The position numbers were made by a program, and so were the translations under genes. DNA of 64,000 nucleotides, taken from the NCBI RefSeq assembly GCF_003201355.1, contig NZ_QICL01000002.1, positions 186,001 through 250,000 on the forward strand, given 5' to 3'. Positions 10,435 through 15,050 of the stretch are shown here, one piece after another. The notes under the pieces were generated by a model, which did no database searches, was not told the DNA's origin, and worked only from the letters and a program-made list of their open reading frames with translations. Each line of letters begins with the position of its first letter. Positions within the stretch are counted from its first letter, which is position 1. The stretch is from Indolivaga alginatilytica. Its GTDB lineage: Bacteria; Bacteroidota; Bacteroidia; Bacteroidales; Dysgonomonadaceae.

Positions 10435-13400
10435 ATGAAAAAATATCTGACACTAATTCTACTTTGCTTACTCTCAATTACAGTGTGGGCGCAGGAGCAG
10501 AGGTCGCCTAATATTCAGATTAACGGTCTCAGTAAAGACGAAAGCCCGGTAAGGATATCGGATGTGAAAATCGATGTAAAAGTAGTCGGGTCACTCGCTG
10601 TAACTACTGTCGACATGACTTTTTACAATCCGAATAATCGTATTCTTGAGGGTGAATTGCAGTTCCCTCTTGCCGATGGACAATCTATCTCGCGTTTTGC
10701 TTTAGATATAAACGGCAACCTGCGAGAGGGCGTTGTAGTTGAAAAGGCAAAAGGACAGGAAGTATTCGAATCTACAATTCGCAGGAAGGTAGATCCCGGA
10801 CTGCTCGAAAAAACAGTCGGAAATAATTTTCGTACACGGGTGTATCCTTTACCCGCAAAAGGAACACGACGTATTGTGATTGCTTATGAGCAGGAACTAA
10901 CCAAAGGTAATGACGATTATCTGTTTTTCCTGCCTGTTGAATATCGGGATGTACTCGATAATTTCAGTCTGAATATAGCTGTGCATGCCGATGGACAAAA
11001 GCCAACAGTGGAGAAAACCCCTTGGGGTAGTTTTTCGTTTGATAAATCGGGAGAAGCTTATCTGGCATCTTATTCGGCAAAACAATATCCTTCAAAAGGA
11101 CAATTGGTATTTTCTATACCTATCAAGAGCAACAAACAAATTTATATTGAGAAAGGACTGATAAGTAGTCAGCCGGTGTTTTATGCTCAGGTTTTTCCTT
11201 CACTTACCGTAGAAGCCAAACAGAGTCCGAAGAATATAGCTCTTTTCTGGGATGCATCTTCATCTATGAACGGGCGCAATCTGCCTTTGGAGATAGAATT
11301 ATTGGATAACTATTTTAAAGAGAATGGAAACCTGACTGTTGAACTGTACACATTCAACTGTATTTTAGGCAAATCGCAAACATTCCCGATTAAAAACGGG
11401 AACTGGGATAATCTAAAGGATGTACTCAAAAATATACCGTACGATGGAGCTACTCAATTGGGATTGCTCGATTTTTCGAAACTGAATGTCGATGAGATTC
11501 TTCTGTTTACTGACGGGTTGAGTAATTTTGGTAAATCTCAGCCTATTATGGGTAAGTCTCCTGTATCGGTAATAACTTCATCTCTGAGTGCCAATCACAG
11601 TCTTCTGAAATACATCAATATATCATCGGGAGGAACTTACATTAATCTGATGAGCCAAACGCCGCAAGATGCCGCAAAAATGATGAAGAATGAAAGTTTC
11701 AGGTTGATTTCTGCCGATTATGATAAATCCGAAATCAGTGATTTGACAACTTCCGGTACTGTTGTCAATCCGAAGGCAGGATTTACGATGGCCGGTAAAC
11801 TAAAGAAACAGAAAGCTTCTATCACACTTTCGTTTGGTATAGGCAGTCGTGTGTTATATACCGAAACCCTTGTCATAGACCAAAACAATATTGCGGATTA
11901 TGGTAATATAGTGGAACGTGTATGGGCTGAAAAGAAGATAGCTGAGCTTGATTTATTGTTCGATAAAAATAAAGACGAAATAGAATCATTGGGACGTAAA
12001 TACAATATTGTAACACGGAATACGTCACTCATTGTTTTGGATGATGTACAAGATTATGTCACTCATAGAATAACCCCTCCGGCTGAACTCTTAGACGAAT
12101 ATAATCGGATAGTAAGCGAACAGGAAATATGGAACACAAAACAAAAGCAGGATCGGATACAAGCTGTAATATCTATGCTTGAAGCACGGAAAGCCTGGTG
12201 GAACAGAGATTTCAGAAAAGAAATGGAAGAAGCAAAAAAACGGGCTGAGGAGGAAGAGGTTTTAAGAAGGGAAAGAGCTCAAAATCAAAGAGCAGAGCCA
12301 ACATCGGGTCGTTCAATGATTGCCCGTCAGACGAATTCATATAATGGACGGGGTGTTAGTGGAATAATTAAAGATGAAACGGGTGAGCCTCTCATCGGAG
12401 TCTCTGTTAATATAAAAGGAACCAATACAGGTACTGTTTCCGATTTAGATGGGAAATATTCCATTAATGCTAAAGTTAATGAGGTTTTGCGATTCTCTTT
12501 TGTAGGAATGAATTCGATCGAGGTCTCTGTTCGGGGTAGCGAGTTGGATGTTGTTCTTGCCGATGATCAAGCGACGTTGAATGATGTTGTCGTTGTAGGT
12601 TATGGTGCTCAAAGACGTAGTGATCTCACAGGCTCGGTATCTCAGTTTACGGCTCCCGAAACTGTAGCCGATGAATTGCAGGGTCGTGTAGCAGGTATTC
12701 AGGTAAGCGAATCTGAAAGTCAAGACATCAGGAGAAGAAGCCCTAAATCGGTTTCTTCCAATAATTCACCTTCCGAATCTTTAAATTATAAATTAACTGC
12801 CGGCATAACATTGAACAAATGGAGCCCTGATGCTGCTTATCTGAATGAATTGAAAACTAAATCGGATAAAGAACTATATGCATCCTATTTGTCAATCAGA
12901 GATGAATATAAGTCGACACCCTCTTTTTTTCTGGAAGTATCAACTCTTTTCGAGGAAAGAGGATTAAAAGACGAAGCACTTATTATTCTCTCTAATCTGG
13001 CTGAACTGGAAGTTGAAAACTATAGATTGACGCGTGTATTGGCTCATCGTCTGAAACAGATGGGGTATAATGATTATGCTATCGATCAGTTTAAGTTGCT
13101 ATTGACTCTTCGCCCTGAAGAACCTCAGACTTATCGGGATTTAGGACTGGCTTATGCTCAGAATAAAGAGTATCAGCAAGCTGTCAATACACTTTATAAG
13201 ATGCTTGAACGCAGGTGGGACACTCGTTTCCCTCAGGTGGAAATGTTTGCAGTTGAAGAAATAAATAATGTAATAGATAAAGCTAAACGCGAAAAGATTG
13301 AACTGGATCTTAGTTCGGTAGACAATCGTCTGATATATAACATGCCCGTAAATATACGTGTTGTACTCAACTGGGACACCGATAACAGCGATATGGATTT

Positions 13401-13713
13401 GTGGGTAACAGACCCTAATGGCGAAAAATGCTTCTATAGTCATAAGCAAACTCGGATAGGAGGTTTAATGTCCTATGATTTTACGGGTGGCTATGGTCCC
13501 GAAGAATTCCTGATAAAAGAAGCGATAAGAGGTAAATATAAAATACAGGCAAACTATTATGGAAGTAGTGAACAGACTCTGGTTGGTCCAACGACTATCT
13601 ATCTCGATATTTACACTTATTATTCGAGCGGAAAAGAAAAGAAAGAAACAATAACCTTACGTTTGTCGAGTAACAAAGAAACGATTGACATAGGTGAGGT
13701 AAATTTTGAATAG
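10435..13713 (+). CDS. VIT/VWA protein fused to a SusC-like N-terminal module, TPR and DUF2135-like domains
   Basis: This exported 1092-residue protein (signal peptide MKKYLTLILLCLLSITVWAQ) has an unusual domain order. A VIT domain spans about residues 25-160. A von Willebrand A domain spans about 275-430, with MIDAS motif DASSS and FTDGLSNFG. A charged helical stretch at about 560-620 includes EEAKKRAEEEEVLRRERA. A carboxypeptidase-regulatory-like fold begins near 638 (VSGIIKDETGEPLIGVSVNI). It is followed by a TonB-receptor-like VVVVGYGAQ near 717 and by LQGRVAGIQVSES near 747, both typical of SusC proteins, but no barrel follows. TPR-like helices precede a C-terminal beta domain (WDTDNSDMDLWVTDPNGE) resembling DUF2135. 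The role is unknown; adhesion or envelope scaffolding is a guess. Confidence 0.85.
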   Translation: MKKYLTLILLCLLSITVWAQEQRSPNIQINGLSKDESPVRISDVKIDVKVVGSLAVTTVDMTFYNPNNRILEGELQFPLADGQSISRFALDINGNLREGVVVEKAKGQEVFESTIRRKVDPGLLEKTVGNNFRTRVYPLPAKGTRRIVIAYEQELTKGNDDYLFFLPVEYRDVLDNFSLNIAVHADGQKPTVEKTPWGSFSFDKSGEAYLASYSAKQYPSKGQLVFSIPIKSNKQIYIEKGLISSQPVFYAQVFPSLTVEAKQSPKNIALFWDASSSMNGRNLPLEIELLDNYFKENGNLTVELYTFNCILGKSQTFPIKNGNWDNLKDVLKNIPYDGATQLGLLDFSKLNVDEILLFTDGLSNFGKSQPIMGKSPVSVITSSLSANHSLLKYINISSGGTYINLMSQTPQDAAKMMKNESFRLISADYDKSEISDLTTSGTVVNPKAGFTMAGKLKKQKASITLSFGIGSRVLYTETLVIDQNNIADYGNIVERVWAEKKIAELDLLFDKNKDEIESLGRKYNIVTRNTSLIVLDDVQDYVTHRITPPAELLDEYNRIVSEQEIWNTKQKQDRIQAVISMLEARKAWWNRDFRKEMEEAKKRAEEEEVLRRERAQNQRAEPTSGRSMIARQTNSYNGRGVSGIIKDETGEPLIGVSVNIKGTNTGTVSDLDGKYSINAKVNEVLRFSFVGMNSIEVSVRGSELDVVLADDQATLNDVVVVGYGAQRRSDLTGSVSQFTAPETVADELQGRVAGIQVSESESQDIRRRSPKSVSSNNSPSESLNYKLTAGITLNKWSPDAAYLNELKTKSDKELYASYLSIRDEYKSTPSFFLEVSTLFEERGLKDEALIILSNLAELEVENYRLTRVLAHRLKQMGYNDYAIDQFKLLLTLRPEEPQTYRDLGLAYAQNKEYQQAVNTLYKMLERRWDTRFPQVEMFAVEEINNVIDKAKREKIELDLSSVDNRLIYNMPVNIRVVLNWDTDNSDMDLWVTDPNGEKCFYSHKQTRIGGLMSYDFTGGYGPEEFLIKEAIRGKYKIQANYYGSSEQTLVGPTTIYLDIYTYYSSGKEKKETITLRLSSNKETIDIGEVNFE

Positions 13714-13944: not shown

Positions 13945-14451
13945 ATGGCAGATAATGATATTCAAGAGCAGTTCCTATCTATTTTAGAAGAAAATATCGG
14001 GATGATTATAAAAATTTCAAGGGCTTATACCAAAGTCGTGCAGGATCGTGAGGATTTAATTAATGATATTACTCTTGAATTGTGGAAATCATTTAAGCAT
14101 TTCAAGGGAGGCTCGAAAATTTCGACATGGATCTATCGGGTCGCCTTGAATACTTCGATGAACTATAAACGGAAAAAGACCAGTGGCTCTCTATTCTCCT
14201 ACTTTAACGATTTGAAGGAGAAAGATACTTACTCATGGCTTATGGAAGAAGATAATTCGCCGGAACTGGAAATCTTATATAACTGTATTGATGAGTTAAA
14301 TGAGATCAATAAGGCAATTATTTTACTCTATCTTGATGATAATTCGCATGATGAAATATCAGAGATAATGGGCATCTCGAAAACAAATGTCGGTACGCGA
14401 ATTAGTAGAATTAAGGAACAGATTAAAAATTTAGCAATTTCAAAAATCTAA
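13945..14451 (+). CDS. RNA polymerase sigma factor, ECF type
   Basis: This 168-residue protein is a two-domain extracytoplasmic-function sigma factor. Region 2 is near residues 20-75 (VVQDREDLINDITLELWKSF then STWIYRVALNTSMNYKRK). Region 4 is near 115-160 (EINKAIILLYLDDNSHDEIS and GISKTNVGTRISRIKEQI). It lacks the extra domains of housekeeping sigma factors. The next gene begins 5 bases later and encodes a membrane protein, the usual place for a sigma regulator. The signal sensed and the regulon are unknown. Confidence 0.9.
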   Translation: MADNDIQEQFLSILEENIGMIIKISRAYTKVVQDREDLINDITLELWKSFKHFKGGSKISTWIYRVALNTSMNYKRKKTSGSLFSYFNDLKEKDTYSWLMEEDNSPELEILYNCIDELNEINKAIILLYLDDNSHDEISEIMGISKTNVGTRISRIKEQIKNLAISKI

Positions 14452-14456
14452 GAATC

Positions 14457-15050
14457 ATGGAACTAACAGAACTGGAAAATATCTGGAGAGAATCTGATAA
14501 AAAGATAGCGGATAATACTCGTTTAAATAAAGAAATTCTGAAAAGGATGTTGATGTCTAAGCCCGAGAAGCGATTACACCGGATGAAAATCAAAGTTGTT
14601 TACAATGTGCTTTCGCCTGTAATCCTTTTTATTGTGTTGGTGATTATAGATTTTCAATTTCGTTTAACAGTTAACTTCTATATTGGCTTAAGTCTCTTTG
14701 TATTTATATATGTCATTAATTATATCTGGGATATTAAGTATTTTCTATTGATTCGTAATATTGATTTCTCCGATAAGACTTTAACTCTAAAAAAGAAATT
14801 TGCTAAGCTTGAAAAATACACGATCAAAACATCGAAAATACGACATTTGCTAATGCCTTTTGCTATATTGGCAGCACTACTTATGCTGTTTCAAAAATTT
14901 GTATTCAATATCGAATCAATAGTGATGTTGATTTTAATAGTACTTGTTTTTATTGCATCGACTTACTACAGGTTTAGATATGCAATTTTTGAGCGCTTTA
15001 AGAAACTGAATAAAGAAATTGAAGAAATAGAAAATCTAGAAAAAGAATAA
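14457..15050 (+). CDS. Membrane protein, likely partner of the ECF sigma factor
   Basis: This 197-residue protein is not recognised by family. An N-terminal soluble part of about 50 residues (ELENIWRESDKKIADNTRLN) precedes two hydrophobic hairpins: about residues 55-95 (VLSPVILFIVLVIIDF, FYIGLSLFVFIYVI) and about 138-175 (LMPFAILAALLMLF, SIVMLILIVLVFIAS). The C-terminus is a charged helix (KKLNKEIEEIENLEKE). Its position directly behind the sigma gene suggests it restrains or anchors the sigma factor, with the soluble N-terminus in the cytoplasm. That role is inferred from context only. Confidence 0.7.
   Translation: MELTELENIWRESDKKIADNTRLNKEILKRMLMSKPEKRLHRMKIKVVYNVLSPVILFIVLVIIDFQFRLTVNFYIGLSLFVFIYVINYIWDIKYFLLIRNIDFSDKTLTLKKKFAKLEKYTIKTSKIRHLLMPFAILAALLMLFQKFVFNIESIVMLILIVLVFIASTYYRFRYAIFERFKKLNKEIEEIENLEKE

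Follow-up and report, generated by a model that had tools for sequence, protein, structure and literature searches.

A 64,000-nucleotide stretch of the Indolivaga alginatilytica genome (NCBI RefSeq assembly GCF_003201355.1, contig NZ_QICL01000002.1, positions 186,001 to 250,000 of the forward strand; hereafter the window) contains an open reading frame (ORF) at 10435-13713 on the + strand, which encodes a VIT-VWA protein of 1092 amino acids. This protein is not a TonB-dependent transporter, because two defining features of that class, plug and barrel, are absent; it belongs with the VIT-VWA proteins and adds to them a docking module derived from a receptor, a new combination of known parts. 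We consider the chances evenly balanced that it is a periplasmic VIT-VWA/TPR-DUF2135 scaffold which a TonB-family protein can grip by a flexibly tethered Ton box. TonB-family docking is the most economical reading: what has been retained is what the C-terminal domain of a TonB would be expected to grip. Many Bacteroidota relatives carry the same module, which suggests that the TonB grip of receptors has been reused for another job.

Domain architecture of the window protein

The window protein carries VIT, VWA, a SusC-type N-terminal extension (NTE; CarbopepD_reg_2), a Ton box, the first plug strand, TPR and DUF2135, in that order and in a single open frame with no internal stops (all features below lie on the + strand). 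A putative type I signal peptide without a lipobox was read from the sequence at residues 1-20 (10435..10494), and a lipobox-like motif was found in 0 of 126 orthologues. Pfam placed VIT at residues 42-151 (10558..10887; PF08487, E 5.2e-25). No Pfam model matched the VWA part of the window protein at E<=1; the domain, at about residues 265-420 (11227..11694), was recognized by its fold, for which the best Foldseek match was inter-alpha-inhibitor heavy chain 1 (ITIH1; 6fpy), and by five residues (D273, S275, S277, T340 and D360) that are invariant across a 39-row alignment whose rows were hand-picked from 81. We take these five to be the VWA metal-site positions; an earlier reading made from the DNA letters alone (hereafter the sequence-only reading) had called the metal-ion-dependent adhesion site intact. 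With a VIT domain followed by a VWA domain bearing these residues, both domains being of adhesion type, the protein is of the VIT-VWA class.

Long helices precede the module in the AlphaFold2 model (residues 550-617; 12082..12285). The NTE follows at residues 641-720 (12355..12594; PF13715, E 1.6e-16), and the Ton box LNDVVVVGYG at residues 715-724 (12577..12606) was identified from the translation, its position after the NTE and profile columns about 76-85. Beyond the module, TPR-like helices were modelled at residues 801-952 (12835..13290), with a Pfam TPR match at about residues 870-930 scoring under the cut-off. The chain ends in a C-terminal beta domain at residues 972-1091 (13348..13707), which shows strands in the model and includes DUF2135 (residues 1030-1077; PF09906, E 1.1e-14). 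The Pfam, NCBIfam and fold matches confirm the earlier observation that VIT, VWA, a carboxypeptidase-regulatory-like fold, a VVVVGYG segment, TPR-like helices and DUF2135 share one frame.

The NCBIfam model of RagA/SusC, TIGR04056, aligned profile positions 3-133 of 981 with residues 641-763 (E 7e-38), scoring 130.6 bits against a whole-protein cut-off of 368. The match stops at residue 763 and no barrel is seen in the AlphaFold2 model; since nothing beyond profile position 133 was matched, the 22-strand barrel is absent, as the sequence-only reading had noticed. A complete plug domain (PF07715) was unmatched in the window protein at E<=1. LQGRVAGIQV had been taken for the start of a plug, and the first strand is indeed present within a fragment at residues 725-757 (12607..12705), delimited by the TIGR04056 match, the translation and the model. 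This strand is all that the window copy has of a plug, and because it stands alone and is predicted to be disordered, what remains is not a plug domain but a tether.

Predicted structure of the docking module

The AlphaFold2 model of the window protein was built from the 39-row alignment and had a mean predicted local distance difference test score (pLDDT) of 82. The NTE was folded at pLDDT about 90 up to residue 712, and Foldseek matched it to 9hfj, the NTE of SusCdex BT3090, with a root-mean-square deviation of 0.7 and 40% identity. Residues 714-786 (12574..12792), comprising the Ton box and LQGRVAGIQV, were predicted to be disordered, with pLDDT below 50. The model thus divides the module into a folded NTE and a disordered Ton box and plug fragment. 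The L106 orthologue has plug elements reaching as far as the plug end; in its model, residues 708-770, which span the Ton box and the plug's first half, were likewise disordered, and a strand and helix of the plug end made up a small unit with pLDDT about 75.

The place of the Ton box after the NTE matches that of VDEVVV in Bt1763. In the Bt1763 study, deletion or mutation of VDEVVV impaired levan growth to a degree similar to that seen when SusD was lost, and nuclear magnetic resonance showed a flexible Ton box (PMC7782687); the folded NTE and disordered Ton box modelled here agree with those measurements.

The module in orthologues across Bacteroidota

Profile searches of other genomes indicate that the module is not peculiar to the window genome: Bacteroidota orthologues bear it in the same slot, between VWA and TPR. 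Slot contents were scored with a profile made from seven SusC N-termini of the window genome. A similarity-ranked set came from a genome-contig scan with a 7-row alignment, which returned 383 relatives, the 80 best of them being retained; 79 full-length proteins including that of the window were counted and two partial ones left out. In this set, which is biased because the ranking used a module-bearing query, the Ton box was found in 74 of 79 proteins, the first plug strand in 62, the NTE in 52, the plug middle in 36 and the plug end in 30; 17 of the 79 had all five elements and 5 had two Ton boxes.

Two further sets were chosen on VIT-VWA alone. A phylum-wide draw matched 46 of 395 genomes at 1e-20, and the 29 best non-window orthologues were scored: 15 had some element, with the Ton box in 14, the plug strand in 11, the NTE in 8, the plug end in 6 and the plug middle in 5. 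A draw within one family, picked since the orthologue L131 (described below) belongs there, matched 33 of 299 genomes at 1e-40 and gave 28 new proteins, of which 23 were kept after four short ones and one of another kind were dropped. All 23 had some element, 21 had the Ton box and 17 had all five (17 of 28 before dropping). Taken together, these two sets had the Ton box in 35 of 52 proteins, the plug strand in 32, the NTE in 28, the plug end in 26 and the plug middle in 23; removal of five proteins that repeat the similarity-ranked set left 30, 27, 23, 23 and 20, respectively, of 47. The Ton box was the commonest element in every set counted.

Among the 14 element-free orthologues of the phylum-wide draw, a box-like motif was noted in L136, a TonB domain in L131 and a PF13620 domain in L147. 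The linkers of the distant orthologues L143, L145, L146 and L148 appeared by eye to hold Oar-type plug-middle pieces (RGSR...VDG) without a Ton box, a weak observation; PF07715 was matched in L143 at E 0.095 and in none of the other three at E 0.1.

These counts bear on the alternative that the NTE is the working part, as a general Bacteroidota envelope-assembly or protein-protein module, with the Ton box merely carried along. The folded NTE and its match to 9hfj fit this idea, and the excerpts on Bt1763 report that NTE deletion left no detectable growth in 24 h, worse than Ton box loss, and that the function of the NTE is not known (PMC7782687). NCBIfam BamP also matched the NTE regions of L106 (3.9e-5) and P0001 (1.1e-4), both far under the cut-off, but the main text of the BamP paper never uses 'carboxypeptidase', 'NTE' or 'N-terminal extension'. 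The NTE, however, has been lost more often than the Ton box (kept in 52 versus 74 of 79, and 28 versus 35 of 52), and whole groups such as Pedobacter keep the box and the plug strand with the NTE gone. We find it very doubtful that the NTE, rather than the Ton box, is the working part.

The sequence-only reading had offered capture of a TonB-receptor piece as one explanation. The piece is receptor-derived, but its presence in orthologues across the phylum speaks against a local capture, and some relatives keep plug elements through the plug end. Nor is the fusion confined to one genome with broken frames in relatives, since orthologues share the layout. The window genome contains 57 other matches, all over the module and at <=47% protein identity; given these values and the shared layout, a chimeric assembly of the gene, including an error at 12.3-12.8 kb, appears unlikely from the sequence comparisons. 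The genome holds one gene of the window VIT-VWA type and 14 TonB_C matches. The VIT-VWA part was matched in 12 of 101 relatives including the window genome, 7 of these at 1e-98 or better. Elsewhere in the genome, a SusC-type gene is split into overlapping frames of 311 and 704 residues (L034:942-3982; G000:C40), by a frameshift or an assembly error.

A TonB C-terminal domain in the slot of one orthologue

In the locus L131/L236, the slot holds a TonB C-terminal domain (PF03544, 25.1 bits versus a cut-off of 24.6). This domain resembles the C-terminal part of a 241-residue ORF (phmmer 8.2e-33, searched against the ORFs of that locus only), which has the layout of a TonB, with a membrane segment and a proline run. 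The assignment rests on a PF03544 score barely over the cut-off and on likeness to TonB-like ORFs; PDB sequences gave one unrelated weak match to it, and TIGR01352 was unmatched at E 0.001. The L131 genome is a single contig, the protein is placed among module-bearing proteins on the tree, and in L178, from a congener, the slot holds NTE, Ton box and plug.

Retention and constraint of the Ton box

Within residues 588-802 of the 39-row alignment, the only columns conserved at >=90% were 717 and 719, both inside the Ton box. We estimated approximate ratios of nonsynonymous to synonymous substitution (dN/dS) for the box core, which were obtainable in four of five groups (none for L051/L052). They were 0.07, 0.08, 0.08 and 0.11, compared with 0.18, 0.22, 0.25 and 0.10 for the preceding linker, values to be read with synonymous sites near saturation and a box core of ten codons. 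Globular domains of the same proteins gave 0.02-0.13, and the box core at 0.07-0.08 was close to them in three of the four groups. On a 126-tip tree the Ton box underwent the fewest changes, 10 versus 14-20 for the other elements.

Several results weigh against TonB docking as the reason for keeping the module. In a random-truncation control, which placed remnants of equal length at random, the Ton box was kept in 15 of 18 partial modules versus 12.1 +/- 1.5 expected (P 0.055), and random truncation explains much of its retention. When tree changes were set against shuffled labels, the box (observed/shuffled, 10/20.9) was no steadier than the NTE (16/39.8) or the plug end (14/40.8). In Mucilaginibacter, the box (0.11) was under no extra constraint relative to the preceding linker (0.10). 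The phylum-wide draw left 14 of 29 orthologues without any element, as many as had a Ton box (14 of 29), and the combined 35 of 52 is raised by the one-family draw (21 of 23), which was chosen for L131. The TonB domain of L131, used as its own query, matched 1 of 131 orthologue proteins. Among 81 VIT-VWA loci, a single-sequence search found no TonB-domain neighbour, and no partner gene is widely shared. Finally, of the six genomes of the genus only the window genome itself has the gene, which is for this reason dispensable. The Ton box is partly special among the linker elements.

Some of the same data would be expected if the linker were a permissive landing site, where fragments of the commonest genes in these genomes are picked up and then decay gradually, serving no function. 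The slot contents are very varied, the window genome has 57 other module matches, the truncation control was not rejected at P 0.055, and 14 of 52 orthologues persist without any element. Against this stand the box-core dN/dS values, near those of globular domains (0.02-0.13) in four groups, the restriction of near-invariant linker columns to the Ton box, the retention of all five elements by most proteins of one family (17 of 28, or 17 of the 23 kept as full length), and a second protein family, the YfbK type described below, with the same fusion at another position. On balance we judge a functionless landing site improbable.

Replacement of the module by gene conversion was also considered, since synonymous divergence at the box was high in two Flavobacterium groups and low in L051/L052. 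It was dropped because comparable values occur in other segments of these genes, or because the low stretch continues into the TPR part. In L051/L052, about residues 659-825, synonymous divergence is low over the box and the early TPR relative to the remainder of the gene, and recombination is possible there.

YfbK-type VWA proteins and neighbouring genes

A YfbK-type VWA protein whose N-terminal part bears an NTE and LSETVVIGF is also encoded in the window genome. This type was matched in 45 of 198 genomes of the phylum, the window genome included; 18 of the other 44 loci were fetched by hand choice and, with the own locus, made up 19. A box-like motif was seen by eye in 12 of the 19 (the stretch after the NTE in L229 fell outside this inspection). 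In 8 of the 19 (7 of the 18 others and the own locus), two genes lay nearby, one for an extracytoplasmic function (ECF) sigma factor and one whose product has a TonB-like C-terminal domain; set against the TonB-domain density of the window genome, 7 of 18 gave P about 1e-6, with kinship ignored. In L229:3554-6229, a zinc-finger anti-sigma domain, an NTE and a YfbK VWA lie in one chain, and YfbK-plug genes directly adjoin VIT-VWA genes in L107, L108, L235 and L238.

Related arrangements were observed around these loci. At L033:352-4782 (G000:C1:200351-204781), a YfbK-type VWA gene with NTE and Ton box is divergent from genes for an ECF sigma factor and a membrane protein with a TonB-like C-terminus, and is followed by a gene for a 123-residue protein that is little beyond an NTE. 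L107:77-7257 and L108:1929-9132 each hold a tandem trio: a YfbK protein with NTE and plug, a VIT-VWA protein and a 551-residue NTE-plug-TPR-DUF2135 protein. In four of these loci, the TonB-domain proteins (L217:2773-4035, L220:3182-4489, L222:7372-8748 and L224:2400-3674) are anti-sigma-like membrane proteins whose single chain holds first an NTE and then the TonB-like C-terminal domain; Pfam, run on three of them, found both domains, that for TonB in L217 slightly under the cut-off. L232:4939-7623 joins an N-terminus of anti-sigma type (by layout only) to NTE, plug and YfbK VWA. In another VIT family (L031:2538-5885 and L032:4932-8270), the NTE and a VVVVGYG-type motif are N-terminal, not central.

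Downstream of the window gene lie an ECF-type sigma factor gene (13945..14451; sigma70-ECF, 8.4e-22) and, after it, an ORF (14457..15050) for a small protein judged by eye to be of the membrane, which had no family above cut-off and no TonB domain match; both are treated here as neighbours only. A sigma factor was rejected as constant partner, because one lies close to the VIT-VWA gene in 3 of 81 loci, that of the window counted (2 of 80 others). The most widespread neighbour cluster, an aminotransferase-like gene, occurred in 23 of 81 loci; it lay upstream in 21 of them and, among the 14 loci listed, was mainly from Flavobacterium; the remaining clusters were confined to Flavobacterium or Pedobacter.

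These loci bring in a signalling relay, in which VIT-VWA would be a periplasmic sensor and the NTE-Ton box would be read by a TonB-domain anti-sigma factor or a neighbouring ECF sigma system, as in barrel-less cell-surface signalling. The NTE-bearing YfbK VWA genes beside ECF sigma factor and TonB-like-C-terminus genes (7 of 18 other loci and the window genome), the single chain of L229, the four YfbK-plug/VIT-VWA adjacencies and the sigma factor gene downstream of the window gene are in keeping with it. A precedent in excerpts of PMC2729926 is VreA, a barrel-less STN protein with a TolA/TonB-type domain that works with the sigma factor VreI and the regulator VreR. For the VIT-VWA gene itself, however, a nearby sigma gene occurs in just 3 of 81 loci (the window's among them), no TonB domain was matched in the adjacent membrane protein, and none of the VIT-VWA loci searched showed a TonB-domain neighbour. 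A sigma relay through the YfbK loci is plausible; as the job of the window protein we think it rather unlikely.

Discussion

For the docking reading, we infer a periplasmic location, TonB binding and an effect of pull. The window protein would be exported to the periplasm and act as a VIT-VWA/TPR-DUF2135 scaffold with a built-in handle for TonB-family proteins, made of the NTE and then the Ton box on its disordered tether, between the two scaffold halves. A TonB C-terminal domain, either of energised TonB or fused to a membrane regulator, could pair with the Ton box as in receptors, and the scaffold might thereby be pulled, positioned or switched. No transport would be involved, because there is no barrel, and the rest of the plug would be dispensable and trimmed differently between lineages. 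More tentatively, and at somewhat under even chances, we propose that a set of Bacteroidota periplasmic VWA proteins of the VIT-VWA and YfbK types, equipped with Ton boxes and in some cases with a nearly complete plug or a TonB C-terminal domain, passes TonB-family force or binding on to an ECF-sigma relay or to a machine that has no part in transport.

The sequence-only reading is partly supported. Of the separate jobs that it offered for the module, recruitment of TonB is the better supported, by retention and conservation of the box, its predicted disorder, the L131 TonB domain and the YfbK neighbours; nothing pointing to SusC/SusD docking turned up, and no test aimed at such docking was made.

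Compared with known systems, the window protein is like SusC/RagA TonB-dependent transporters (TIGR04056; residues 641-763, E 7e-38) in its NTE, Ton box and plug start, and unlike them in having neither barrel nor complete plug and in bearing the module between VWA and TPR of a soluble-type protein. It shares VIT and VWA with metal-site residues with inter-alpha-trypsin-inhibitor heavy chains, which include the best fold match, 6fpy, but is bacterial and has the NTE-Ton box module, TPR and DUF2135. The nearest published ideas that we found are the VreA system and the TolA/TonB-like coupling of PorE, both taken from excerpts (PMC2729926, PMC12204202). VreA of PUMA3 is also barrel-less and mostly soluble, combines receptor-signalling and TolA/TonB-type domains and is tied to ECF sigma signalling, but it is a Pseudomonas protein with STN rather than NTE, has no VIT/VWA and itself carries the TonB-type domain (PMC2729926). 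PorE, a Bacteroidota envelope protein that likewise lacks a barrel, has a carboxypeptidase domain resembling an NTE, and TolA/TonB-like force transduction has been suggested for it; it differs in its CpoB-, TolB- and Pal-like domains, in being a putative outer-membrane lipoprotein and in having no VIT/VWA (PMC12204202). VWA domains have themselves been proposed in periplasmic force transduction, but there VWA replaces the TonB C-terminal domain on a membrane-tethered transducer, whereas the window VWA protein carries the Ton box (PMC12204202). Among open-licence PubMed Central papers, no VIT-VWA protein with an NTE or plug appeared in the titles and abstract openings found, and that literature gave no match for a TonB plug domain lacking a barrel.

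A phylum-wide family that keeps the NTE and Ton box without a transporter separates TonB gripping from transport, and a barrel-free construct would make recognition of the NTE and Ton box by different TonBs directly measurable. Should the YfbK arrangement prove to be a relay, ECF sigma factors would be reachable from the periplasm by a further, barrel-less route.

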